Shown here in pieces: positions 8,622 through 28,961 of a DNA stretch of 64,000 bases; position 1 is the first letter of the stretch, and each line of letters opens with the position of its first letter. This stretch comes from Cohaesibacter sp. (GTDB lineage: Bacteria; Pseudomonadota; Alphaproteobacteria; Rhizobiales; Cohaesibacteraceae): assembly GCA_025800105.1 (NCBI GenBank), contig JAOXSG010001101.1, forward strand, positions 1 to 64,000, written 5' to 3'. Below the pieces are notes generated by a model, which did no database searches, was not told where the DNA came from, and saw only the letters and a program-made list of their open reading frames with translations. The position numbers and the translations under genes are program-made.

Positions 8622-9206
8622 ATGCTCTCTTTTTTATCGCAGCGTTTGGCACGCCTTGCTCACCAGTTTGCCCACAAAGTTTCTTTGGGCTTGGCGATTG
8701 CTGGTGGCGTGCTTTTGCTGGCATTGGTCTTGCTAAGCGTTCTTTCCATTTTGGGGCGAGAATTGGCTGCTTTGGCTTTTCTCTCAGAGAGGCTTGGCCC
8801 CATTCCGGGGGATTATGAATTGATTGAGCTGGGGATGGGCTTTGCCATCTTCGCTTTTTTGCCTTGGGCCCATTGGGTCAATGCTCATGCCAGTGTTGAT
8901 TTGTTGCGGCCCCTTTTTGGCGAAAAGATCAATCTTGCTCTGGATATGGTGCGCGATGGACTGATGCTGCTCTTTGCGTTTTTTCTGGCCCGGCAACTCT
9001 GGCTTGGTCTGCTGGATAAACAGAGCTATGGCGAGACCAGCTTCATATTGCAAATCCCGCTTTGGTGGGGTTATGCGGCGGGGCTGATTGGGGCGCTGCT
9101 CTTTGTGCTGATCTGCGTCATCAAATTCATGCTGCTTTGCTATCGCTCTTTTTCAGGGGATTTATCCGCTTATCCAGACAAGCCAAGAGCGGGAGGCGGT
9201 CTATGA
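8622..9206 (+). CDS. TRAP transporter small permease, DctQ family
   Basis: Four-TM small protein between P and M subunits; GDYELIELGMGFAIFAFLPWAHWVNAHASVDLLRPLF. Confidence 0.85.
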   Translation: MLSFLSQRLARLAHQFAHKVSLGLAIAGGVLLLALVLLSVLSILGRELAALAFLSERLGPIPGDYELIELGMGFAIFAFLPWAHWVNAHASVDLLRPLFGEKINLALDMVRDGLMLLFAFFLARQLWLGLLDKQSYGETSFILQIPLWWGYAAGLIGALLFVLICVIKFMLLCYRSFSGDLSAYPDKPRAGGGL

Positions 9207-12138: not shown

Positions 12139-12233
12139 CATATTTTCCATGTTATAAAAATGATATAAGCGCTTGAATGGCAATGTTTTGTGCTGTTCGT
12201 GTTTCTCGAGATAAGCCGCTTTTTCTATTTGGC

Positions 12234-14474
12234 TTATATGCGGTCCAAAAGTTCGAAATATTGTTTGCCAATGTGATCCCATCTATAGCGGCGTTGTGCT
12301 ATATCCAGCATAGCCTCTCTTATCTCAACGTCTTTTTGAGGTGAGAGGTTATATATCAATGCAGAGAGTTCCTCAGAATTTTTGAAATAACCAGCTGCAT
12401 TCTCGGTCGTTAGCCTATTAAATGTGCAATCAAATGCCAAAATAGCTATGCCAAAATGCATCATCTCGACCAATGACGGGTTGGTGCCGCCGGCCGAGTG
12501 ACCATGAATATATGCCGATGCCTTCGCCCTTAAGGCATATAGCCCTTCTGGCTCATAGACTGGATCCAGCAGATACAGATTTTCGCTATCTTTATATTGC
12601 GCTTTTAGCTTGCGGCCATATGCGGTGTTCTTCCAGTTACCAACAAAGACCAGCGGCTTGTCTAGGCTCGCAAAGGCTTTCAGGATCATATGGACGTTAT
12701 TTTCCGGTTCGATCCGGCAAAGCGCCAAGGCGTAGGTATTTGGCACTCCATCCGGCAGGCGACAAGATGCTGCCATTTTTGCGACTGCATGATCGCCACC
12801 ATAGGCTATGATCTCGCTATCGCTGCCATAGGCTTCTTTGATATGGTGCGCTATGGCTTGATTGTCAGCAATGATGTGGTGGGAAAAACGGATTGCAGCC
12901 CATTCTGATATTTTCAGGAAAGCACGCGCCAATCCATTCCACTTCTCTCGTTTCCATTCGATCCCGTCAATATTGGTAACAATCCTAGCTCGGCTTATTA
13001 AGCGGATCAGAGGCAAAGCCAATGCCCCAGAAATCCCCAGAAGCACAATTCGGTTATGCCCACTGAACACGGCCCCCAAAAGGCTAAGAATGTCATAGGG
13101 AATGCTCTGTATTCCATTGGCACGCAGCCCAATATAGCGCAGCCGGGCACTCTCGAAACGCTCAGCTCGATCCCGACTTTCTTTTGACGAGCACCACACC
13201 GTCAAGATGGCTCTATGCCTGATGCGGGCATGATAAAGCACCAGATTTTCTGCCAATGTTTCAAACCCGCCATAACGGCCCGGCACGCCAACTGTGCCCA
13301 GCAAGGCAATTTTTAAAACTGGCACAGTGGTGCTCTGCTGCTCAAAGACTGTTAAGAAGCGCTGTTGAAACCGCTCCAGAGTGAACCGGCTCTCATATTG
13401 CATTCTGTTTTGGCGGGATTGGCCCTCTTGTTGATCCGCCAGCATAGATATCAGAGCATTGGCAAGCTCTTGGGCATTGTCTGGTTCCACCAAAATGCTG
13501 GCTGTTTCTTGCAGCATTTCCGGCAATCCGCCTGTCTTGGAGGCTATAATCAGGCAGCCCGCCCGCAATGCTTCCAGTCCGGTTGTTGGAAATGGGTCTG
13601 CAAATAGGGACGGTATACAAGCGACTTTGCTTTGCGCAAAAAATGTTGCAGCATCTGCACGTTCCCCCAAATATTCTATATGCAAATGTGAAAAATCTGA
13701 AAATAGCCCCTTAGGTAAGGAGACACCGGGAAGGCAACCACCGATGATAAGCACCTTGGTGCCTTTGCGCTCTGGACTATCCAGACTGCGCAATGCGTTC
13801 AGAAAGGTATAAAATCCCTTTTTCTGTGTCAGTCGTCCAACATAGGCTATATCCCACTTACGGCCTCTTTCAAGGATTGCTGTAGCAGCCTTCGTGTCAG
13901 CGCCCCTCCCCCTATCATTCTCTATATGGATCTCATCCAAATCCGGGATGCCGTTATGAAGAACCTCTGCTTGCGGGGTGTTTGCAAGCCCCCATGCAGT
14001 CTTGATGGCTTGTGACACAACAATGATTTTGAGATCAAACACCCGAATTGTCGCCCTAAGCAGCAATGCAACCACTGGTGTGGGAGCGCTCTCATGCAGA
14101 TGCAAAATACAATGGCGACGCATCATGCGGGCAATGATGGCGGCGGGCAGTGTCGCAAAGCTATTGCAATATATGATATGATGTCTGGGATAACACTTTC
14201 GCAAAAGCTTGGCAAAATGGACACTATTGGCCACCACTTTTGCCAAACTCTTAAACGGTTTGCTGCGAAACTCGCGCATCACCAATATTGGTAGCTCAGC
14301 TTGTTGAGCATAACGCAATGCGGGCTCGTTGTGCTCCACTGCCACAAGCGCCTCTACATCGTACCCCGCTTTTTGCATGAAGCTGATGATGATCCGCGCA
14401 ATCCGGGAGGACCCATACAGATCTGAAACGCAATCAATGAATAGAATGGATTGATCGTCAAGCACTGCGCACAC
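12234..14474 (-). CDS. Two-domain glycosyltransferase: N-terminal GT4-type plus C-terminal DUF1972/rhamnosyltransferase-like GT4
   Basis: 746 aa; first GT: WDIAYVGRLTQKKGFYTFLNALRSL...FPTTGLEALRAGCLIIASKTGGLPEML; second: LKIALLGTVGVPGRYGGFETLAENLV...AYIHGHSAGGTNPSLVEMMHFG. Confidence 0.88.
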   Translation of the reverse strand: MCAVLDDQSILFIDCVSDLYGSSRIARIIISFMQKAGYDVEALVAVEHNEPALRYAQQAELPILVMREFRSKPFKSLAKVVANSVHFAKLLRKCYPRHHIIYCNSFATLPAAIIARMMRRHCILHLHESAPTPVVALLLRATIRVFDLKIIVVSQAIKTAWGLANTPQAEVLHNGIPDLDEIHIENDRGRGADTKAATAILERGRKWDIAYVGRLTQKKGFYTFLNALRSLDSPERKGTKVLIIGGCLPGVSLPKGLFSDFSHLHIEYLGERADAATFFAQSKVACIPSLFADPFPTTGLEALRAGCLIIASKTGGLPEMLQETASILVEPDNAQELANALISMLADQQEGQSRQNRMQYESRFTLERFQQRFLTVFEQQSTTVPVLKIALLGTVGVPGRYGGFETLAENLVLYHARIRHRAILTVWCSSKESRDRAERFESARLRYIGLRANGIQSIPYDILSLLGAVFSGHNRIVLLGISGALALPLIRLISRARIVTNIDGIEWKREKWNGLARAFLKISEWAAIRFSHHIIADNQAIAHHIKEAYGSDSEIIAYGGDHAVAKMAASCRLPDGVPNTYALALCRIEPENNVHMILKAFASLDKPLVFVGNWKNTAYGRKLKAQYKDSENLYLLDPVYEPEGLYALRAKASAYIHGHSAGGTNPSLVEMMHFGIAILAFDCTFNRLTTENAAGYFKNSEELSALIYNLSPQKDVEIREAMLDIAQRRYRWDHIGKQYFELLDRI

Positions 14475-15819
14475 TGTCTCCCGTCAAATCCCTTCCTCGC
14501 TCAGAATAGGAAAGCATAATTATTTCAATAATTTCATCAATAATCTCGTTAATATCCTTATCAACATCAACCGGTATGAAAGTGTGACTTTCGTCAGCCA
14601 TCTGTTGTAACAGCGTAAGCTGCCTTGCCATTTCTTCCATACTGAGTTCGGGTTTTCTGGCGTGCAAAATATCAGGGGGGCCAAGCAGCGCAAAAATGAT
14701 GTCCGGCTTGGGCGCACTATATTGGACCAAACTGAGCAAGGGGGCTGGAACAGTCATCCGATATCTTAACGGATCGATGCGGAGATCAGTGATAAAGCGA
14801 TCAAAAATCACCAGATGCTTTCGAATTTTTAAGGGAAGAAGCACACAAAAATGCCCCAGACTATAATCCAAACAGAAATATGCCAGCCGGATGAATGAAA
14901 CAATTTTCCCATGTGGAATGACATTGTGAGGATCGGGGTTTTCCTGCTTTTCGATGGATGGGCTCCAAACTTTAAGCCTCCCCGGAGACGGCAAAAAACG
15001 AGGCCTCCAGTAAAAGCATGAAATTTCGTGAAAAATTGGCTCCATTCTGGTGCTGAGTTCTTGGATGAGCGTTGATTTTCCCGATCCATCAGGCCCCAAA
15101 AACGCAATAGTGCAGCCGACTGGTCTGCGAATCCGATATATTGCACGGCTGATTTCACGTTTCCATGCGACCGCCCGCCCTTTGCCCCCCATGCGCGCTT
15201 TGCCATATTTTATGAGTTTTCTTTTCATGGTGCGCTCTGAAATTTGCGGCGTCTTTGCAGCTGCTATCTCGATCGCATCCACAATGATTGGGGGAAATAT
15301 TTCAGCGCATGTTTTAAGGCTGTTTTTGCCAAGAAGAGTTCTTATTCGATCAACACGATAGCTACGACCATCCTGTTTGATAATATGGCGAACTGCGAGA
15401 TAAGCCAGCTCATTTTTTTCCGACAGGCTCCAGAAATTCCCATTAAAAACTCTGTCATGGGTTATTTCCTCGTGACGCAGGATCTCGCCAATCTCAAAGG
15501 AGGCATATCCCTCCATAATATCTATCTTCAGCACAATTCGTGCTGCACTTGCGCGCTTTACAAGTGTATAGGCCCGGCTATGCGTACCGGACCAGATATC
15601 ACACATGAGCAAGAGATCATTGCAATGTGCAAATACACGTATCAATTGTGCAATTGATGCGCTATCTTTGGAGGCCACCGAAATATCAAGGTCAAAATCC
15701 GTCTCTGCATTCTCTTTGGGCAAACCGGATAAGACACAATAGGATATGTCCTGATCATTCAGATCAGCCAAAAAACGGGTCACCAGTTGATTGCGCAGAG
15801 AAAGATCTAACTTACTCAT
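14458..15819 (-). CDS. Thymidylate kinase-like P-loop protein with an extra N-terminal domain, EPS-locus associated
   Basis: Walker A FLGPDGSGKSTLIQEL; FDRFITDLRIDPLRYR; N-terminal SYCVLSGLPKENAETDFDLDISV (nucleotidyltransferase-like pattern); 17-bp overlap with the downstream GT gene. Confidence 0.65.
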   Translation of the reverse strand: MSKLDLSLRNQLVTRFLADLNDQDISYCVLSGLPKENAETDFDLDISVASKDSASIAQLIRVFAHCNDLLLMCDIWSGTHSRAYTLVKRASAARIVLKIDIMEGYASFEIGEILRHEEITHDRVFNGNFWSLSEKNELAYLAVRHIIKQDGRSYRVDRIRTLLGKNSLKTCAEIFPPIIVDAIEIAAAKTPQISERTMKRKLIKYGKARMGGKGRAVAWKREISRAIYRIRRPVGCTIAFLGPDGSGKSTLIQELSTRMEPIFHEISCFYWRPRFLPSPGRLKVWSPSIEKQENPDPHNVIPHGKIVSFIRLAYFCLDYSLGHFCVLLPLKIRKHLVIFDRFITDLRIDPLRYRMTVPAPLLSLVQYSAPKPDIIFALLGPPDILHARKPELSMEEMARQLTLLQQMADESHTFIPVDVDKDINEIIDEIIEIIMLSYSERGRDLTGDSVRSA

Positions 15820-15899
15820 AAATAATCCTAAATTTTTATATCCTTCGCTCTTGTTCTTTCGCAATGGTGCAAGCTTTGCCCTATAGAGACAGTGGCGGA

Positions 15900-16967
15900 T
15901 CAATAAAACTGAAGTACATTTCTGGGACTCCAAAATAGAATGGTTACGACAGCCATGGTCAGAAAAGAGGCTGCACCGGATAGGACAAAAAGACTGTCAT
16001 CCCGCATGGCGCGCCGCATCAATAGAGCAATCAGAAACGGCTCCATCATCTGGGCCGGCAGGTAAATCCTATCACGGAATAAAACATTCCCCCAGAAAAG
16101 GATGCTCAACGTCAAGAGCGCCAAATAATATCGAAACAGCAAGATTTCTTTGTCTGAGAGCCGCTTTCGCAGCAGCCATGCCCCAGTCAATATGAGAACC
16201 GGAATGGCATATTGCAGCTTGAAACCGGAATTTTCATAAGCAAATCGTCCGCTGGATGCATAATTCTGATAATCTTCAAACCGCTCGATCCACGGTTCCA
16301 TACTTGTCGAGAAAAAGGGGAAAACATAAATCAGAGCAAGCGCTGCAAGGATCAATTTTATGGCAGAAATTGCTGCATGTTTGAGCGTTGAAAGATTTGA
16401 CACCGATAAAAAAACAGCATGACCCAGCGCAGAATAGTGAAACCCAGCCCCTGCGAGAACAAAAGCAAAAAAGCCTCGTGTTCGGCCCGCCGTGACCAAG
16501 ATTATCGTTGCATACATGATCAAGGCGGCGGCTAAACCATTCCTCAAAATTAGAATATTCACGGTCCAAAATACCGGTGACGCACAATATAAAGCAAAGG
16601 CAATCGCAGCCAGACCGGGATTGAAACGCACAAAAGCGAGATAGACAATCAGATTGGTGGCAAAGGCACTGACAAAAAGATAAACTATATTATCGTTACT
16701 GATGAGCCGCAGCAGGCGGAGCGCCATGATATAAGCTGTTTCAATGAAAGGCTCAAAATAGTCTGGATTGCTATACATCTGGAGATAAATGCGCGTATCA
16801 GCACCAAGACGGATATCGCGCAGGCTGATCGCCAGCGAGACGAGTGCCACAATTGGAATCGTAAAGGCTAACCGCTCCCATCGCCCCTGTATCGATTGAA
16901 TTGAAAAGCAATATAATCCTGCAATCAGGATGATGATAAAATAGGTGACATGAACAGATTCGATCAT
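15900..16967 (-). CDS. EpsG/Wzy-like polysaccharide polymerase membrane protein
   Basis: ~10 hydrophobic segments; LRDIRLGADTRIYLQMYSN early motif typical of EpsG-type proteins; position in the EPS operon. Confidence 0.65.
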   Translation of the reverse strand: MIESVHVTYFIIILIAGLYCFSIQSIQGRWERLAFTIPIVALVSLAISLRDIRLGADTRIYLQMYSNPDYFEPFIETAYIMALRLLRLISNDNIVYLFVSAFATNLIVYLAFVRFNPGLAAIAFALYCASPVFWTVNILILRNGLAAALIMYATIILVTAGRTRGFFAFVLAGAGFHYSALGHAVFLSVSNLSTLKHAAISAIKLILAALALIYVFPFFSTSMEPWIERFEDYQNYASSGRFAYENSGFKLQYAIPVLILTGAWLLRKRLSDKEILLFRYYLALLTLSILFWGNVLFRDRIYLPAQMMEPFLIALLMRRAMRDDSLFVLSGAASFLTMAVVTILFWSPRNVLQFY

Positions 16968-18088
16968 AAGATGCCCTGCCCTTGCTCTTGCATCACCTCT
17001 CGCAACACTTCAGCTGCTTCTGTCGAACCATTTAAGAGTTTGCGCAGAAAATAGGACACCAGCAACAGTTGCGCCCCCTCTCTGCTCCCCTCATGCCAAC
17101 GCTCCTGCATTCGCGTTTTAAGGGTTATAGCGTCTAAGGTGTCTGTGCTGATCAGAAAATGCAGATGGTCATAACCAAGTGGATGCGTTCTGGATTGCTC
17201 CCAATCAAAGACATAAAGCTGCCCGTCTGTGAGGCGGCAGTTCCATGGGGTAAAATCTCCATGCGCCAGCGCTCCATAAACAGAGCTATGGTCCAGAATT
17301 CTGATAATTTCATCCAGCGCTCTGAGCGCAATCCTGTTTGCAAGTGGTGTTAGCTTTGTTGCCACCGATTTATGCTTGTTGCGCAAAATATCTGCATATT
17401 CCACACTGAGCGGTGCAGCCGTTTTTCTGGCCATTTCTTCAAGAAAGGCAACATGCTTCTTTTTGAGCCTTCTTGCAGATTGACAGTTCGGCTTTGTCTC
17501 ATCACTACAGATATATGCCCTTCGGCAAGCAAAGTGCGTATAAGCGAGTATCTGTGGCAGAATAGCCGTTGCCAATTTTAGTTGTTTGGCGCGCTTTAAC
17601 GCCCGTATTTCATGGGCGATCAAAGTGTTGGCTTGTGGCGAGCAGGCAAGCTTGAGATAGGCATTTTGGCGGCTATCCATGCTACGAAGCTGCACTGTGA
17701 TTTTACGATCTGGACCGGGTGTGCCTGAAAAGAAAGCGGCGCTTGACCAATTGTGAAGGCATGGCTTGGAATGCATGGCCTTTAGATAGATGCGATTGCG
17801 GGTCCAGATGGGTCGCAATCCGATATGATTGCAGGAAAGAGCGGCACATTTTGCCAAGCGAGAATGCAGTGACATCGGCGTCAGCATCCTAAATGCAGAC
17901 GCTATGCTTGTCCGGTTTTGCAAGGGAACGAGAAGCCAGCGGTCTATGCTTGCAGCTTTGAGGATCGCAAAGGCGGAGGCTTGAGGATCAGTGGCTGTGC
18001 TTTGTTCCAGACCCAACAGCCCCAATTCTTCAATAAATTGCGCAAAATTTGGATTGGTGAGGGGAAACAGATTGGTTCTTAAAAACAT
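16964..18088 (-). CDS. APH/choline-kinase-fold phosphotransferase
   Basis: GALAHGDFTPWNCRLTDGQLYVFDWEQSRTHPLGYDHLHFL = Brenner motif HGDFTPWN plus DWE; 4-bp overlap with the EpsG-like gene. Confidence 0.75.
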   Translation of the reverse strand: MFLRTNLFPLTNPNFAQFIEELGLLGLEQSTATDPQASAFAILKAASIDRWLLVPLQNRTSIASAFRMLTPMSLHSRLAKCAALSCNHIGLRPIWTRNRIYLKAMHSKPCLHNWSSAAFFSGTPGPDRKITVQLRSMDSRQNAYLKLACSPQANTLIAHEIRALKRAKQLKLATAILPQILAYTHFACRRAYICSDETKPNCQSARRLKKKHVAFLEEMARKTAAPLSVEYADILRNKHKSVATKLTPLANRIALRALDEIIRILDHSSVYGALAHGDFTPWNCRLTDGQLYVFDWEQSRTHPLGYDHLHFLISTDTLDAITLKTRMQERWHEGSREGAQLLLVSYFLRKLLNGSTEAAEVLREVMQEQGQGIL

Positions 18089-19398
18089 AGCGGCCTAAGC
18101 CCCATGGTCCGATAGCCTCCAATAGCCAGTGGCAGATAGCTGGCCAAGACCCCAATGCAAGCTGCCATAGCAGCGCCCAGCAGCCCGTAATATGGCACCA
18201 ATATCCATGTAGCCATCCCCAATGTTACAGCACCGATTAGCTGACTTAATACACAATATCTCTGATAACCGGTCATCAGCAATGTCACAGTCACAGGTCC
18301 AAAAGCTGCTCGTATCAGCTGTGCGACAAGAAGCAGGACAAGCACGGGATAGACATTGCTCGCATAGAGTGAGCCTAAAAGCAGATCGATGATTTGCTCC
18401 CCCCAAATATAGAAGAAGCCTGCAATCATCAGAGCAGCAACAATCCCTGCCAAGGACAGCATATGATAAAGCTTTTGCAAGTCTTCCAATTCCCCTTTGG
18501 AATGGAGACTGACGACCCGGGCTGCCATCAGCAATTCAAGGATGCCAATAGGAAGTGCAACGCACTGCGCGGCTTTGTCCGCAAGATGATAGTAGGAGAC
18601 ATGCTCTTTTTGCAAAAGAAAGCCAACCAATATCAGGTTCAGCTGCAATCCAATGATCATCAAAATAGAATAGGCAATATAGCCTTTGCTCTGTGCAACA
18701 AGCAGGTAGACGCGCCTATATGCCGGGCCTGACTGACCAAAATCTTTTGTCAGTCGCTGCACTCTTAGTTGAGACAGGACAGCCCCGAAACCATAACCGA
18801 CAGCAAGGGCTACAAGCACAAACCACGGCATCCGGGTGCCTGATATCGACATAAGACAGAACAGGAGCACAAGTGAGGCCAAGGGAGCCATGATCAGGAG
18901 ATAAAATTGCCCTTCGCTGGCTCGTTCCAGCCCTCTTAATCCTGCGCTGGCAATGTTCATGACGCCAATGAAGGCAGCGGCTAAGCAGATTGTGCCAATG
19001 ATCTGCCCTGACAAAGAAAGCGGAATTGCATCCAGCATTGATCCAATGGCGAGCAGCAGAAGAAAGATACATGCAGCAAGCGCAACAGACTGAATGGAGG
19101 CCATAATGGCTGGTCGGATTTCAGCATATCGGCCCTCTGTCCTCAGCATGGCAACATGCCGGGTTAAATATTGCGATACCCCGCCAGAGATAGAAGCCGC
19201 TCCAATTGTGGCAAGAGACCACGAAATGGCGTAAATACCATAATCCTTTGGCCCCAGCCAATCTGCAAGCAGAACCGAAATTGACAAAGCCAGTGGTAAG
19301 GAGAGCAATTTTATTGCTCCAACAACAGCACCGTTGCGAAGATAATATGAAAAAGTGTCACTGGAATTGGAATATCGCTTGGAACGCATTTGATACAC
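18079..19398 (-). CDS. Polysaccharide flippase (Wzx / MATE-like)
   Basis: 12-14 hydrophobic segments; SVLLADWLGPKDYGIYAISWSLATIGAASISGGVSQYLTRHVA motif. Confidence 0.85.
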   Translation of the reverse strand: MYQMRSKRYSNSSDTFSYYLRNGAVVGAIKLLSLPLALSISVLLADWLGPKDYGIYAISWSLATIGAASISGGVSQYLTRHVAMLRTEGRYAEIRPAIMASIQSVALAACIFLLLLAIGSMLDAIPLSLSGQIIGTICLAAAFIGVMNIASAGLRGLERASEGQFYLLIMAPLASLVLLFCLMSISGTRMPWFVLVALAVGYGFGAVLSQLRVQRLTKDFGQSGPAYRRVYLLVAQSKGYIAYSILMIIGLQLNLILVGFLLQKEHVSYYHLADKAAQCVALPIGILELLMAARVVSLHSKGELEDLQKLYHMLSLAGIVAALMIAGFFYIWGEQIIDLLLGSLYASNVYPVLVLLLVAQLIRAAFGPVTVTLLMTGYQRYCVLSQLIGAVTLGMATWILVPYYGLLGAAMAACIGVLASYLPLAIGGYRTMGLRPLCF

Positions 19399-20658
19399 TC
19401 ATTCAGACCAAACTGGCAGATCAATCTGTCTATTTTTGCCTTTTAAAAAACAAGAATAGACTTCAAGATGCTGGCGCACGATATTTTCATAATTATATGT
19501 GTTAAGCGCCCGATGAATTGCCACTTTTGCCTTTTCTTGCCGCAGAGGCTCATTTAAGGCCAGCTCTAGCAATGCCTTGGCCAGACTTTCAACTGGCGTA
19601 TCGATGTTTGAAAGCGGCAAGGTTATTCCTGCATCAAGCCCAACAGCTCGCCCAATCGCATCTCCTTCCAGACAGATCGTCGGCAGGCCTGTCAGCATTG
19701 CCTGTAGCAAAATGGTTGCCAAGCCGTGATGGTAGCATGGATACAGAAAAATATCAGACTGGTTCAGCTCGACCAATAGCTTGTCCATTGGCAGCTCACC
19801 GGTCAGTGTCACCACGCCGCTCAGATTATTGTGCAGGATTTCCGCCTGAATTGCGCTTTTCAGATGTCCCGCCCCAACCATCGTCATGCAAGAGTTTGGA
19901 TAGTTCAAATGGAACTTTGCAAATGCCCGGACTGCATAGAACGCTCCCTTCCAATCGACAAATTCTCCTGCATATATAACCCGCAATGTGCCTTTGCGCT
20001 TCAGATTGGTTTTTCGCAGAGCCATACAAGGCGACGCTTCGATGCCTGTCTGGACAAAAGGAAGTACCTTTTTCTGGAGATTTTTAGAGAAAGAAGCCGG
20101 TGTATGCGACAGAATGATATCAGCGCGCATACGGGTGTAGCATACGCTTGGATCCAGATTGCGCAGAGCAAAGCGAAGGGCAGATCTGATCGTCTCATTT
20201 AGCCGTGCACACCACGGCATATGTCTGCGGATCAGTGGATGAGTATTCTCGCTTCCGACAGGTCCCCAGATGAATGGCTTCTTTTGGAAAGCTGCGCCAG
20301 ACGGCATCCAATCCATACCGCCCGTTAGATGATGAATGATGTCAAAATCATATATCTTGTCAAATTTTCGGATTGGGGCAGAAGACCCCAGCTGCCAAAG
20401 ATAATAATATAGCAAAAACCTCTTTTTGCCCCGACCTTTAAGCGCGGTAAAGAATGGGGGCAAATCGTAATAGAGCCAATTCACATTTGAGCAATGCTCT
20501 GCATTTTCAAGCGCGGATTTGTTGTTGCTGCGCGTCAAAATCCAGATCTGGTGTTCTTTTGCCAGTCTGCGCCCAAGCGTCCAACCGATTTCGCTTTCTC
20601 CCCCCTTTGCGGGTTCACAAGCATATGCAATGATTAGTATTTTCAATTTATCAGCCAA
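19399..20658 (-). CDS. Glycosyltransferase family 4
   Basis: ACEPAKGGESEIGWTLGRRLAKEHQIWILTRSNN; VIYAGEFVDWKGAFYAVRAFAKF; LYPCYHHGLATILLQAMLTGLPTICLEGDAIG. Confidence 0.88.
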   Translation of the reverse strand: MADKLKILIIAYACEPAKGGESEIGWTLGRRLAKEHQIWILTRSNNKSALENAEHCSNVNWLYYDLPPFFTALKGRGKKRFLLYYYLWQLGSSAPIRKFDKIYDFDIIHHLTGGMDWMPSGAAFQKKPFIWGPVGSENTHPLIRRHMPWCARLNETIRSALRFALRNLDPSVCYTRMRADIILSHTPASFSKNLQKKVLPFVQTGIEASPCMALRKTNLKRKGTLRVIYAGEFVDWKGAFYAVRAFAKFHLNYPNSCMTMVGAGHLKSAIQAEILHNNLSGVVTLTGELPMDKLLVELNQSDIFLYPCYHHGLATILLQAMLTGLPTICLEGDAIGRAVGLDAGITLPLSNIDTPVESLAKALLELALNEPLRQEKAKVAIHRALNTYNYENIVRQHLEVYSCFLKGKNRQIDLPVWSE

Positions 20659-20992
20659 AATAATTTTTATTCGTTCATCTATAAATGCAAAATCACCCTT
20701 AATAAGATTATTGGTTTATTTTCATTTTTAAATATATTCAAATATATCTTTCCCGACCCTCATGCAAAATATTTAAAAAAACAACCATTGAGAGATCGGT
20801 TACGCGACAGCTTATCAAGTCAATTCTTTGAAATAAATATTTTATTTCTAAAAATATACGTCACTACATTATGGGATCTTGTGAAGAATGGCTTGGAGGT
20901 GCCTCTTTGAGGGACAGCGCATTTGTAAAGACTATCCACATCCGCATTGACCCTACTTGCTATTTACTAAGACTCTATTCATGATCAATCCT

Positions 20993-21186
20993 GATGGTTC
21001 TGGATGATCTGCATAGATTATCTGGATGAAAAGGGAACACGGTGCGGTGTAGCCATCAGGCGCCAATTCCGTGACTGCCCCCGCAACTGTAGGCGGCGAG
21101 TGAAAACCAAAAAATCCACTGGGTTTACTCATAAAACCCGGGAAGGCTGGTTTAACTGCGACCCGTAAGTCAGGAGACCTGCCATC
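20993..21186 (+). ncRNA. Cobalamin (AdoCbl/B12) riboswitch aptamer
   Basis: AAAAGGGAACACGGTGCGGTG, B12-box region GACTGCCCCCGCAACTGTAGGCGG, and AAGTCAGGAGACCTGCC; closing pairing GATGG(20993-20997)/CCATC(21182-21186). Confidence 0.93.
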
Positions 21187-21250
21187 TTTGTTTTTCACTC
21201 AAACCGGGCGGGGTGTCCCGGACAGGAACCATAAAGATGCCAAAGATGGC
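21181..21250 (+). promoter_or_regulatory. Candidate alternative helix of the riboswitch expression platform
   Basis: GCCATCTTTG (21181-21190, includes the 3' closing strand of the aptamer) is the exact reverse complement of CAAAGATGGC (21241-21250). Confidence 0.6.
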
Positions 21251-21280
21251 TAGAGCATCAGATATGACCGGTTTCTCTTT

Positions 21281-21304
21281 CGCCCCGCATATGCGCGGAG
21301 GGCG
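21281..21304 (+). promoter_or_regulatory. Shine-Dalgarno-sequestering hairpin of the riboswitch expression platform
   Basis: CGCCCCGC (21281-21288) pairs with GCG-GA-GGGCG (21295-21304), enclosing GGAGGG just upstream of ATG 21307. Confidence 0.65.
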
Positions 21305-21306
21305 TT

Positions 21307-21741
21307 ATGAGCCGGATCTTATCTGAACCTTCATCAAGCAAATACAAACATATGGGCACTGTCTCGGACATTGGCTATGATTTTGCCAATACCCTTGCCC
21401 AGTCTATCAGCACCGCACAAATGATTGTCGGCAAAGAGTTCAGCGCCTCTGGCTTTGCTGAACTCAAAGATGATGGCGACAATTATATGGTTGGCTGGCA
21501 AAGCGAACAAAATGATCTCTATGTTTTTGGCGATGTCGAAACAGACCAGAATTTAGATGATCTCGTCTGCCTGGCAAAAAGAACCATTGCCCCATGCAGC
21601 AAGACCAAAGGCCCCCAGAAACCAACAGCCGTGCCTGCTTTCATGCTGATCGTGAATTTGGAAAATGAGCCCAAGCCCAGCCCAACGGGGCGAAGAAATG
21701 CGAGACGAACCAGACGCAGAACAGGCCGCAGCGCGGCCTAA
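21307..21741 (+). CDS. Hypothetical protein (144 aa), immediate target of the cobalamin riboswitch
   Basis: ORF starts 2 nt after the SD-containing hairpin; no family recognised by eye; Arg-rich C-terminus. Confidence 0.65.
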   Translation: MSRILSEPSSSKYKHMGTVSDIGYDFANTLAQSISTAQMIVGKEFSASGFAELKDDGDNYMVGWQSEQNDLYVFGDVETDQNLDDLVCLAKRTIAPCSKTKGPQKPTAVPAFMLIVNLENEPKPSPTGRRNARRTRRRTGRSAA

Positions 21742-22072
21742 GGGTTAGGCCTTACAAGCGATAATGCAGGAACAATAAATTTATATTTGCTCCTTGCAGT
21801 CCCCTTATCGCACCCCAGACAGGTCAAGGCAATTCAGGCATTAAATGCCATTAAGCCACTATCAAACTCCCCATTATCTTCCCTGATATTGGCTTTTTTT
21901 CAAGACATTGCCTTGGCCTCCTATCAAAGACAGTGACAAAACCATCTCATTCAAGGCGTGGCCCGTAACCATCAAATGGTAAAGGCTTGTCTTTCAGATC
22001 AGCTTGCATAAAATGGCTATGAACCAGACGGCATAAAAATAAAAGCCGCCAATATCCAGCCATAGTCCGCAA

Positions 22073-23110
22073 ATGATGACCGATCTTCTTCCCTCGACAC
22101 AATTTTGTGTCTCCAGCCTGCCCAAAAAAGAGCGCTTTAGCATTTGGCGTGAGAGTATTTCCTGTATTTTTCAGGTCGAGCCAACAGAGAAGACCCTTGA
22201 TCAGGGCTTTGAAGCCTCAATTGATGGCTATATGTATGGGCAATTATTCTTTGCCAGAACCAAATCAAAGCAACAAATCTGGAACCGGACTGCGCTGGAA
22301 ATTGCCAATGACGGCATGGACCATTTCATGTTTCAGATTTTTGGCAATGGAGACATGCGTTTTGAGCAGAGCAATGATAGAAAACGCATTGGCCTAAATG
22401 GCATTATTATCTTTGATCTGTCGCGCGAGGTTTCTTCTGTCACAGAAAATTTTCTGAATATATCGCTGGTTATTCCCCGTGATCTTTTGGAACCCCATCT
22501 TTTGCATCCAGATGACCATCATATGCGCATTCTCAGTCTGGATGAGCCAATGGCGCAGCTGTTATATGATCATATCAGCAGCTTGAATACGATCATCAAG
22601 GATATGACCATATCACAAGCAAGCGAAACCAATCCCGCCTCCATTGCTTTGGCCGCCGCAGCCATGAATGCAAGCCCGGTGGGGGAAAGTCATTCCGCTG
22701 GCACCCCTTCCCTTGCTCAGTCAATCATGGCCAAACGTGCCATAGAGAATAACCTTGACAATAGCGAACTTACGCCTGACATGCTCTCGCGTATGGTGGG
22801 AATATCACGGTCCAAACTCTATAGCATTTTCGAGCGTGAAGGCGGGGTTGGTGCCTATGTTAAAGAACGGCGCTTGCGAAAAGCCATGGCCATGCTTTTG
22901 CGCGCCGAAGCGTCAAGTGGCAGCATCATGGAAATTGCCTATGGCCTTGGCTTTCGCAACAACAGCACCTTTTCTCGCGCTTTCAAACAACGCTATGGGC
23001 AGACACCGCGAGACATACGCCAATCAAAATCCCACGCTAATTATGACGCGATGATCCCAGCCTCTTTGGACCGGCGCTATGAGAGCTGGCTTAAGGATCT
23101 GAGTATCTAG
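22073..23110 (+). CDS. AraC family transcriptional regulator (AraC-binding-like N-terminal domain)
   Basis: C-terminal HTH: ELTPDMLSRMVGISRSKLYSIFEREGGVGAYVKERRLRKAMAMLL...IMEIAYGLGFRNNSTFSRAFKQRYGQTPRDIR. Confidence 0.92.
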   Translation: MMTDLLPSTQFCVSSLPKKERFSIWRESISCIFQVEPTEKTLDQGFEASIDGYMYGQLFFARTKSKQQIWNRTALEIANDGMDHFMFQIFGNGDMRFEQSNDRKRIGLNGIIIFDLSREVSSVTENFLNISLVIPRDLLEPHLLHPDDHHMRILSLDEPMAQLLYDHISSLNTIIKDMTISQASETNPASIALAAAAMNASPVGESHSAGTPSLAQSIMAKRAIENNLDNSELTPDMLSRMVGISRSKLYSIFEREGGVGAYVKERRLRKAMAMLLRAEASSGSIMEIAYGLGFRNNSTFSRAFKQRYGQTPRDIRQSKSHANYDAMIPASLDRRYESWLKDLSI

Positions 23111-24820: not shown

Positions 24821-26083
24821 ATGTTGCGTCAGTATTTGCCGGAAAAGCGGCCCTTACCGGTCGGTTTTCCTCTCGTGTTTCTTTTGCGTTCAACAACACA
24901 CACACTCATTTCGCTGTTTTTAATCGGGGGCCTTGCTGTCTCGCAGCCTGTGCTGGCGAAAGACACATCATCAGAGGTTCCAAAAGATATTGCCGCCCTC
25001 ATCAAGGAAATTGAGGGTCTGGAAGGAAAATTAAAGGGCCTTTCAGACGATCAGAAAGAGCACAAACAGCTCACAACAAAGCTTTCAAGTTTAAGAGCGA
25101 TCTTGCGATCCTTATCAAAGCCAAGCGAGACACAGCTCCTTGAGGATATGGAAAGCAAGCAAACAGCCCTACAGGAGCAGATTGACACAATCAAAGACCA
25201 TCCCGCCTTATTGACCGAGAAAAACGACAAAATAAAAAATCTTCTGAAATTGCTGGCAACAATTACAGAAAAGACAACCTATATTGATCCTGTCGAGACG
25301 TTAAAGGCCTTAAAAATCGCGACGCAAAAGGTGATGACAGAACGGGCCAACGAGATGGGGTGGCCCAATTATTTTATCAATCCAACGACAGAGTTTCGAA
25401 CAGCAGCACGAACCTTGGCAAAAACAGCCACCACAGGCTGGTCTCCTCATACGGCAGCGGAATTCATTCATTATGCCGAACAATTGGCGACCTTACTGGA
25501 TGAGCCAGCCGCAATAGAAGCAGCTAAGAGCAACGCTAAAAAAACAGAAGCAGAGGTGAAATTTGAATTCCAAACTCTTCGCAAGGATATTGGCAATTCC
25601 AAAAAAGCCATTGAGTTGCGTGACAAGCTTCAACCCCTTCTCACAGCGCTGAAATCTGAGGTGAGCAACCGTATTTTCATTGTCTCGGCCAAGGCCGGCG
25701 ATATGGTCAGCGCGAAAAAAAGCCGCGAATGCAGTGCCACCATTGCCTTGCGCAAGGAATGTCAAGGCAATGAGAAATGCGGCCCGGCAAGCGCAACTGA
25801 TGTGGAGGTTGAAAACGGAAAATTCGCAATCAAAAAAATGTGCGGATATGACCCGGTTGAATTGGCTCCGCTTGAGCATAAGGAATTATGGATTGCCTAT
25901 ACCTGTCTGCCCCCGGACAGTGAGGAATGGGAGGAATTGCTACGCCATTCCTTTGATTATGACATACGCCATGCACGCTTCTTCGTCGATCGGTTGGGAC
26001 AAAGCAACATCCTTCAGGCCAAATATAATCTCGGTTCGCTTTGGGAGCTAAGATGCCACCCCAAAGTGAAGGAGGGATCGTAA
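24821..26083 (+). CDS. Hypothetical secreted coiled-coil protein with Cys-containing C-terminal domain
   Basis: 420 aa; hydrophobic N-terminus ending PVLAKDTSSEV; heptad-like KEIEGLEGKLKGLSDDQKEHKQLTTKLSSLRAILRSL; C-terminal RECSATIALRKECQGNEKCG. Confidence 0.7.
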   Translation: MLRQYLPEKRPLPVGFPLVFLLRSTTHTLISLFLIGGLAVSQPVLAKDTSSEVPKDIAALIKEIEGLEGKLKGLSDDQKEHKQLTTKLSSLRAILRSLSKPSETQLLEDMESKQTALQEQIDTIKDHPALLTEKNDKIKNLLKLLATITEKTTYIDPVETLKALKIATQKVMTERANEMGWPNYFINPTTEFRTAARTLAKTATTGWSPHTAAEFIHYAEQLATLLDEPAAIEAAKSNAKKTEAEVKFEFQTLRKDIGNSKKAIELRDKLQPLLTALKSEVSNRIFIVSAKAGDMVSAKKSRECSATIALRKECQGNEKCGPASATDVEVENGKFAIKKMCGYDPVELAPLEHKELWIAYTCLPPDSEEWEELLRHSFDYDIRHARFFVDRLGQSNILQAKYNLGSLWELRCHPKVKEGS

Positions 26084-27555
26084 TGACACTCTTTCCCTCT
26101 CTCTTCAAACGGGCTGCCTCTCTTATTTTATGCGGCCTGACGCTAGCGGCATGTCAAGTGGTTGGCTCGCACCGTGTCTCTGTCTCCAACAATGACAGCA
26201 ATCTTGGCTGCGTTTCGCATCTGGGCTCCTACAGCCTTCCCAAAGGGGTGGTTAAATTCAGTATTTCCAAAACAACAACAACTGGCAAAGCTCCCACTTT
26301 CAGCCTTGATGAGCTGCGCATACGCCGGATCCCGGACCATAAACACACCTTTTGTCTGGATCATATGGTCAATCATTTGTCCGATGATGATGTATGGGTC
26401 CGCAAAAGCTATCAGATTACAGCAGATAATACCCCTATCGACGGCACATCCTATAAAAAAGGCGCCACAATCCATACCCCTTTCCTGCAACTGGTTGCCT
26501 CCAGTGCTTTTGATCAAAGCGTTGTGATTGTCAGAAAAATCATCAATGCCGTTTTTCAGATCCTCTCCAATAATGGCTCTTTCGCCAATGCCAGAAGCAC
26601 TGATTTAACAGCTCAGGACACAAACAAGGAAATTGTGGCCAATATGGAGTTTGATCCTTTCAACCCCCATGAATTGGCCGAAATCAATCAAAGCATAAGG
26701 CAGCATGGCTTTTGCTTCATTCTGTCCGATTATAGCTATAATACCAGCGAAACCCGAGGCATTTCCGCTGCCCGTTATTGCAACCAGCCCCAAAAAATGG
26801 CCCGACTTTACCCTTCTGCGAAAATGAAAAGGGTCAGGGAACAGGCCTATTTGAAAGAAAAACCCAATCAGGGCATTTTCTTTCGCCCTCGTGCCTCCTA
26901 TCGCCTGTTGATTTACACAAATGATGATCCCAATGGCCGCACCGGCTGGGGTCTCAGTGCCATACAATCCATTGATCTGGAAAATATTTCTCCCATTCTT
27001 TCTGTTGATGTCAGCCGTGCGTGGCTGGCCCAGCAAAAAGTGGCGCTGATTTTCAATGATGGCCAGTTGCAAGATGCCTGCATTGCCAGAGGCAGCCAGG
27101 TTGCAAATGTTGTTCAAATCCCACTGGAAATCATATATGGCGTCATTGCTTTGCCCAGCCAGCGCATTGTCGGGGCCATTCAAAATACCAAATCACGGGT
27201 CGCTCTGGTCGATGCCCAACAGAAACTGATCCAAGCCCAGCAGGATTATATAAACCATCTTGCTGATCCCCAAAAATTTCCTGTTTCAGAAGCGTATGAT
27301 GCAACGAAACTAAAAGGTGCCCCCTTGAAGCTTGGTGTTGAAAATACAGGAGATGACAATCTTGGCGTCCCTAACCCGGAGAGTAACAAGCCAACCAACA
27401 TCACATTCAATACAACTGAGCTTACGGGAAAAACTGAGTTTCATTTTGGCGATAATGGACCATTTGGTGATATTTGCAATCTGCTTCAGGGCCGCTTTGG
27501 CAAGACGCTGCCCGGAAATTTAAATGGTAGTTCATTGACAGCGGTAAAGGAGTAA
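26083..27555 (+). CDS. Hypothetical lipoprotein, paralog 1 of a tandem pair
   Basis: Lipobox LCGLTLAACQVV; TAATG overlap with the upstream gene; shares GxYxLPK, FCLD, FDPFN, FNDGxLxD blocks with the following gene. Confidence 0.8.
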   Translation: MTLFPSLFKRAASLILCGLTLAACQVVGSHRVSVSNNDSNLGCVSHLGSYSLPKGVVKFSISKTTTTGKAPTFSLDELRIRRIPDHKHTFCLDHMVNHLSDDDVWVRKSYQITADNTPIDGTSYKKGATIHTPFLQLVASSAFDQSVVIVRKIINAVFQILSNNGSFANARSTDLTAQDTNKEIVANMEFDPFNPHELAEINQSIRQHGFCFILSDYSYNTSETRGISAARYCNQPQKMARLYPSAKMKRVREQAYLKEKPNQGIFFRPRASYRLLIYTNDDPNGRTGWGLSAIQSIDLENISPILSVDVSRAWLAQQKVALIFNDGQLQDACIARGSQVANVVQIPLEIIYGVIALPSQRIVGAIQNTKSRVALVDAQQKLIQAQQDYINHLADPQKFPVSEAYDATKLKGAPLKLGVENTGDDNLGVPNPESNKPTNITFNTTELTGKTEFHFGDNGPFGDICNLLQGRFGKTLPGNLNGSSLTAVKE

Positions 27556-27560
27556 GCAGG

Positions 27561-28961
27561 ATGAAACATCCAAACACATCATCACACTGCGTGCGCTCCC
27601 TTTTGCCAAATGTGCAGCAAAGATCCTCTCAAAGCTGGCTGTTGCCAACATGTATCTTGTTGCTTATTCTGCCTTTGCTCTCTGCCTGCCAACATGTGGC
27701 TCGCACCCATTATTCACCACAGGATAAGGGCTATAGCTGTCAATCCAATGCTGGCACTTATTATTTGCCCAAAAAATTGCTTAAAATTGACGTCTATGAG
27801 AAAGCCGGCTTCGGATATGGCCTTCACATTGATACCGCGAAGAAAATGACTTCGGATCCCGGCGCAGCTTTTTGTCTGGATTTTCTGCTCTCCGCTTTTG
27901 CTGATAATGCTTTGGGTGTTGAGCGATCCGACAAACTATTGCTGCAAAAAATCTATAAAAATACCAAGCCGAAAATACAGCCGGTTATGGGCTCCCTGAT
28001 ACAGGCGGCGGGCAATCTGGCGGCCGCCAACAAAGCCAGCGCAGCAGCCAACAAAGCCTTTTTGCACAGACAGGCATTGAACAGAAAGGCCGCCTTTGGC
28101 GGCAATATTCTCGGCGATAATCCCAAGGATAAGAGCAAGGCAGGCACGCGTGTCGCCAGCTATGTGTTTGATCCGTTCAACAGAGCAGAAGCCATTGCGG
28201 TTAACCAGACCCTGAGACATAAATATGGCTATTGCGTCTATTTCGATAATTCTGATGATCCAAGAATTCCATCTTGGTCAGCGCAATCCTGTGGCAAGCA
28301 ATATACCTATAGTCAGGGCCTGTCATATACGGATTCTTTCTTTGAGCTGGAAAAGAAACAAGGCAAGAAGGCCATGAAACATGCCCTTCTTTATCGCCCG
28401 GAGCTTCCTCACAAGCTCAAGGTGCTGCGCAAGAAAGACCCGAAAAATCCTCGGATGCGGATGAAATTAATCGGAACAGAATATATCAATATGCCCAACC
28501 GAGCGCCTATTTTTGCTCTGGCTATCAGTCATGGCTTCTTTCAGGAAAGTTCCGGCACCGTTACCTTTAATGACGGAATGTTATATGACGTTGCCATTCG
28601 CCGCAAAAGCGAGCTGAATGCGGCAATTGATATTCCGCTCTATGCCTTGAGTGCGGTTCTCGATATTCCAGCAGCCGCCGTGAATATTTTCAACAATGAT
28701 CTGGATAACCGCAAACAGCTGATCGCGGTCAATCAACAGCTCATCCATCAATTGGAGCAGGCCGAGGACAAAGCGCTGGCTGATCATGCCATTGCAACGG
28801 CTCAGGTCGGGTTGAACCAATTGCTAGTACCGGGAGATGCCAGCATCGTCACGCGCCAACGTGTCCCAACCAACATAGAGCAATGCCAAACTGACAGCGC
28901 TTTCAATCAAACGCTCGAGAGCACTGCTGCCTGTCAGGAAGCGGTACAGCAAGGACAATGA
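27561..28961 (+). CDS. Hypothetical lipoprotein, paralog 2 of a tandem pair
   Basis: Lipobox LILPLLSACQHV; GTYYLPKKLLKIDV, AAFCLDFL, YVFDPFNRAEAIAVNQTLRHKYGYCVYF, VTFNDGMLYDVAI blocks shared with the 26083 gene. Confidence 0.8.
   Translation: MKHPNTSSHCVRSLLPNVQQRSSQSWLLPTCILLLILPLLSACQHVARTHYSPQDKGYSCQSNAGTYYLPKKLLKIDVYEKAGFGYGLHIDTAKKMTSDPGAAFCLDFLLSAFADNALGVERSDKLLLQKIYKNTKPKIQPVMGSLIQAAGNLAAANKASAAANKAFLHRQALNRKAAFGGNILGDNPKDKSKAGTRVASYVFDPFNRAEAIAVNQTLRHKYGYCVYFDNSDDPRIPSWSAQSCGKQYTYSQGLSYTDSFFELEKKQGKKAMKHALLYRPELPHKLKVLRKKDPKNPRMRMKLIGTEYINMPNRAPIFALAISHGFFQESSGTVTFNDGMLYDVAIRRKSELNAAIDIPLYALSAVLDIPAAAVNIFNNDLDNRKQLIAVNQQLIHQLEQAEDKALADHAIATAQVGLNQLLVPGDASIVTRQRVPTNIEQCQTDSAFNQTLESTAACQEAVQQGQ

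Follow-up and report, generated by a model that had tools for sequence, protein, structure and literature searches.

Proteins of the DUF1636 family (PF07845) are annotated either as thioredoxin-like [2Fe-2S] ferredoxins or as "metal-binding protein". The accessible part of the source that assigns them to the thioredoxin-like [2Fe-2S] ferredoxins draws no link between DUF1636 and a riboswitch (PMC4520260). Mentions of the family in the literature are scarce, and no tested function was found there. In the metagenome-assembled genome of Cohaesibacter sp. studied here (G000, 65% completeness), one DUF1636 paralogue adjoins cobW and cobN-like genes in a DUF1636-cobW-cobN-cobO cluster (contig C1166), i.e., it stands beside genes of B12 biosynthesis and keeps its cysteines and partners. 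The window, the 64,000-nucleotide stretch of the same genome that was analysed, contains a paralogous but solo gene at 21307-21741 on the + strand. It encodes a DUF1636-like protein of 144 amino acids (aa) without cluster cysteines and, as in its relatives, lies directly behind a cobalamin riboswitch.

The riboswitch was detected with cmscan as the one RF00174 match in the window (20978-21200, + strand), which covers the full length of the model (1-189 of 189) and scores 122 bits (E 4e-30), well above the gathering score of 31.5. This bears out the cobalamin aptamer proposed in the sequence-only reading, whose three motifs were all found; the 5' end lies 15 bases ahead of the start given there. 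The L5 loop strand CCCCCGC (21078-21084) is invariant in 8/8 riboswitch-ORF pairs of the genus. In cobalamin riboswitches this strand is one side of the L5-L13 kissing contact. The loop L13 of P13 (21204-21221), CGGGGTGT, is complementary to L5, and P13 is enclosed by an outer helix (21183-21239) formed by CATCTTT (21183-21189) and AAAGATG (21233-21239). CATCTT, the L13 sequence CGGGGTG and most of the 3' strand of the outer helix are kept in all eight pairs. A single-strand energy fold of the aptamer misfolded, did not yield the canonical structure and was set aside.

Downstream of the aptamer, CCCCGC and GCGGAGG, separated by a short loop (AUAUGC in the window), form an expression-platform hairpin (21283-21301) that pairs the Shine-Dalgarno sequence GGAGG (21297-21301) just 5' of the start codon of the ORF. 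Both arms are identical in the eight pairs, and the invariant hairpin hence displays no covariation. Such a layout suggests a translational OFF switch with predicted adenosylcobalamin switching. Following the usual direction of cobalamin riboswitches, the ribosome-binding site would be free and the protein made when adenosylcobalamin is scarce; when it is plentiful, the aptamer would close, L13 would dock into L5 and the hairpin would hide GGAGG.

The 144-aa ORF lies where the sequence-only reading had placed it. It is the next + strand ORF after the aptamer with a good ribosome-binding site, and the sole gene conserved behind the riboswitch. Relatives of the ORF were found in seven of the 17 other genomes of the genus, and in all seven RF00174 stands directly ahead of the relative, so that the pairing is kept. 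Because the protein behind the riboswitch of the sister species (G008) is 92% identical and those of six more genomes are 31-44% identical, the ORF is, on comparative grounds, a real gene and not a chance reading frame.

Searched directly against Pfam and NCBIfam, the window protein has no match; what was returned (REV at 0.11, methanethiol oxidase at 0.05) was rejected as noise. Neither this protein nor that of G008 reaches the PF07845 gathering cut-off alone. The copies of G013 and G005 exceed the cut-off by themselves, those of G003, G004 and G011 come near it, and DUF1636 is matched by 47 of the 49 aligned members, the two exceptions being the window and G008 proteins. Profile comparisons link these two to the cysteine-bearing relatives (E 8e-18), the whole relative set to the cobW-linked DUF1636 paralogues of the genus (E 3e-8), and the same set to PDB 9jn8 ('ORF378'; E 2e-9). 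In the phylogenetic tree the window protein groups with G008 (100/99) at the end of a long branch, then with G010 (100/99), within a clade of the genus (100/100), while the cobW-linked paralogues form a separate group. The ORF, for which no family had been recognised, is therefore, as judged by profiles and phylogeny, a highly diverged DUF1636 member by descent that has lost the signature cysteines, and not a new family. The related claim that no B12 gene is visible in the window holds for the annotated neighbours, but the ORF itself is a diverged member of a family found in B12 operons, something that its sequence alone could not reveal.

The likeness to DUF1636 extends to the length of the protein and to the core motifs FGD, D-L-x-x-L and VPA. 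The difference lies mainly in the four cysteine columns (CxxC and CxxxC), which are 95-97% cysteine in the family and where the window protein has -, Y, D and Y; all four are replaced in G008 as well. The window protein also carries an Arg-rich tail. Models of the protein show a helix-strands-helix-strand core with pLDDT > 80. The two AlphaFold models of the protein matched no solved structure in the PDB, and no claim about its fold is based on them; the connection to DUF1636 comes from the profiles.

The gene order in related genomes reveals where this pair comes from. In G010, G011, G004 and G013, genes for an ABC ATPase, a periplasmic binding protein and a FecCD permease come after the ORF relative, and in G043, from a different family of the same order, the gene order matches as far as the short contig extends. 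A profile search of genome contigs with the DUF1636-like alignment found no relative, and the named genomes were therefore searched with the binding protein as query. The best 80 loci, all alphaproteobacterial, were kept; they include Roseibium, the Roseobacter group, Hoeflea, SAR116 and others. Both the riboswitch core and a DUF1636-like gene are present in 50 of them, with a stop/start overlap between the DUF1636-like gene and the ATPase gene in 47 of the 50. A riboswitch without the DUF1636-like gene was seen in 16 loci and neither element in 11 where the upstream sequence was sufficient; the remaining three lie on contigs too short for the call. No DUF1636-like gene (E < 1e-5) without the riboswitch core was found among the best 80 loci. 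Riboswitch status was called here from two core motifs, with which covariance scans concur in 10/10 loci checked. In the wider order, RF00174 was present in 11/11 further loci that match the DUF1636-like profile. The ancestral order would thus be riboswitch, DUF1636-like protein, ABC ATPase, binding protein and FecCD permease. The window locus shares the riboswitch class and the first gene with this operon, but the first gene stands alone, without ATPase, binding protein and permease.

The importer of the relatives is most similar to the hypothetical 'F420-0' ABC models of NCBIfam (TIGR03868/69/73), with BtuC/D/F models scoring lower and all scores below the cut-offs. Like BtuCDF-type B12 importers, it belongs to the FecCD superfamily and stands under the same riboswitch class; unlike them, it scores best with the 'F420-0' models, and its substrate is only predicted. 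Three loci (L183 in G012, L184 in G017 and L182 in G008:C86) lack a DUF1636-like gene, and in these a riboswitch lies directly ahead of the genes for ATPase, binding protein and permease. Those of G008 and G017 belong to a distant subtype with a 44% identical binding protein.

Loss of the importer is seen at several stages. G003 has broken genes for ATPase, binding protein and permease, G005 retains a scrap of the permease, and no remnants of the ABC genes were found within 21700-22300 behind the window ORF or behind the G008 ORF. The cysteines are altered in G010, where the importer is still present. Solo DUF1636-like genes occur on several separate branches of the tree. One of them, in another genus of the family (L185 in G019, 1616-2290, - strand), retains all the cysteines behind its riboswitch and is followed by a convergent AraC-like gene; it is a second, independent uncoupling from the importer. 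The reverse arrangement, riboswitch and importer without the DUF1636-like gene, is that of G012. The DUF1636-like protein was the bait by which the solo loci were detected, and loci whose DUF1636-like gene decayed first are therefore under-counted.

Window and sister species share a block of 93% identity (20918-21968, blastn) comprising about 60 nt of upstream sequence, the riboswitch, the ORF and about 225 nt downstream, beyond which the flanking genes differ. The right flank of the G008 locus is found on another G000 contig, where it adjoins other genes. Therefore, either the riboswitch-ORF unit has stayed intact while its surroundings were reshuffled, or one of the two assemblies is chimeric there. 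Identity between the two species is 217/223 in the aptamer, 103/106 in the platform, 409/435 in the coding region and 210/224 ungapped positions in the 3' flank. For the coding region dN is 0.037 and dS 0.16 (NG86), which gives a dN/dS of about 0.16-0.23 from a single genome pair with 26 substitutions. Residues 1-96 hold nine synonymous and four non-synonymous differences (p 2e-4), and residues 97-144 five and eight, a non-significant ratio with no sign of constraint. Compared in this way, riboswitch and ORF are conserved as a pair, with purifying selection acting on the ORF.

Several other features of the window and of G000 were noted in passing. On the - strand, a polysaccharide cluster with glycosyltransferase-, flippase- and polymerase-like genes (12200-20658) adjoins a tRNA gene; it has no DNA match in G008, where the riboswitch unit and 160 bases at the tRNA are the parts that match, so this cluster is a variable island. 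At 26041-28961 of the window, two lipoprotein-like ORFs of 504 and 466 aa lie side by side; their N-termini look alike by eye, and neither has a Pfam family. They sit among a series of genes for secreted proteins (LprI-like, Inh-like inhibitor, trypsin). In G000, a repeat of about 45 bp showed up as many short matches, dispersed over L016 (about 9089-9139) and some 35 places, including C650:67511.

Taken together, the locus is very likely the surviving head of the importer operon, in which the switch and a cysteine-less protein are kept under selection, the protein probably serving as a cluster-free partner of the remaining B12 or cobalt machinery. As the relatives show what it is the head of, gene loss has occurred, and of the two options in the sequence-only reading, a new function or a leftover of gene loss, the latter was mostly right: relatives carry the full operon. 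The riboswitch, however, is not a dead leftover, because it is conserved with an ORF under purifying selection. This bears directly on the suggestion that riboswitch and ORF are functionless remains of a lost operon which have not yet been erased. Such decay would fit the absence of the ABC genes here and their loss in G003 and G005, the missing cysteines, the long branch to the window and G008 proteins and the unconstrained C-terminal part. It is nevertheless an unlikely explanation, given that the core of the ORF displays a significant synonymous excess between two species, that the aptamer and the platform (97%) have diverged less than the coding sequence or the 3' flank, that the unit is intact amid reshuffled surroundings, and that another genus (G019) has a solo riboswitch-DUF1636 pair with every cysteine in place. 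Still more improbable is that the riboswitch acts on another target, whether a non-coding RNA, an antisense transcript or a gene of the AraC type that lies 330 bp downstream (22073-23110). This gene follows next on the + strand, with no clear intrinsic terminator in between, and the strand opposite the aptamer holds an 81-aa ORF. Yet the AraC-type gene has no match in G008, where the next gene is convergent and unrelated, and the Shine-Dalgarno hairpin is that of the 144-aa ORF. The antisense ORF is conserved solely through the conservation of the aptamer and was rejected as its shadow.

More open to debate is what the retained protein does. Loss of all four ligand cysteines from a core that is still constrained, together with a basic tail (RRNARRTRRRTGRSAA) kept in the window and G008 proteins and absent from the relatives, could point to a new function as a B12-repressed regulator or nucleic-acid binder. 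This proposal is unlikely, as no nucleic-acid-binding family was matched in Pfam or NCBIfam, the C-terminal part is without purifying selection and the tail is modelled at low confidence. A tentative, broader idea, less likely than not, is that a DUF1636 protein freed from both importer and Fe-S cluster now has a different B12-repressed job, as an adaptor or regulator, in a self-contained riboswitch-gene unit that remains intact as the genome around it changes. The favoured reading is that the window protein is a B12-repressed helper of corrinoid or cobalt handling which now works without a cluster. The ancestral protein, carrying a [2Fe-2S] cluster or a bound metal, would have served in redox or metal handling of the imported corrinoid or cobalt chelate. 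Encoded in one operon with a binding-protein-dependent importer, for which the nearest models are 'F420-0', BtuC, BtuD and siderophore transporters, it probably took part in such chemistry on the incoming compound. In the available part of the source, BtuM provides a precedent for cysteine-based chemistry on a corrinoid at import (PMC6072759). In the window lineage the importer genes were lost and the cluster cysteines replaced, with riboswitch and protein remaining under selection. As the lost cysteines can no longer hold a cluster in the window protein, we infer a protein-interaction role as the most economical reading, and any role of the cysteine-less solo protein is put forward as a candidate, as yet unproven.

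Five RF00174 sites are present in G000. Apart from the one described above, they stand ahead of a gene set resembling one for cobalt transport (judged by its sequence, unscored), ahead of a TonB-receptor/binding-protein/BtuC-like operon, ahead of a Rieske monooxygenase pair and at a contig end. Since the genome is incomplete, G000 may have the importer elsewhere. At the third of these sites (L026, G000:C1164, 5856-8482, - strand) RF00174 lies directly ahead of genes for a Rieske oxygenase and a ferredoxin reductase with best scores to GbcA/GbcB, glycine betaine monooxygenase. At 483 and 355 bits, both scores fall short of the curated cut-offs; a possible control of betaine demethylation by B12 is a topic that merits a separate study.

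For the DUF1636 family, these results mean that, across Alphaproteobacteria, the riboswitch ties it to import under B12 regulation, a link that does not depend on its known neighbours cobW and cobN. They also provide a concrete hypothesis for its function, namely that it serves in the redox or metal handling of a corrinoid or cobalt chelate brought in by the importer. The loci also make up a natural series of losses, from the operon with cysteines to the operon with altered cysteines (G010), the solo gene with cysteines (G019) and the solo gene without them (window and G008). A riboswitch-controlled gene can thus outlast the operon it once headed, and the surprise is that selection retains a DUF1636 member which has neither cysteines nor importer and still has a private B12 switch.
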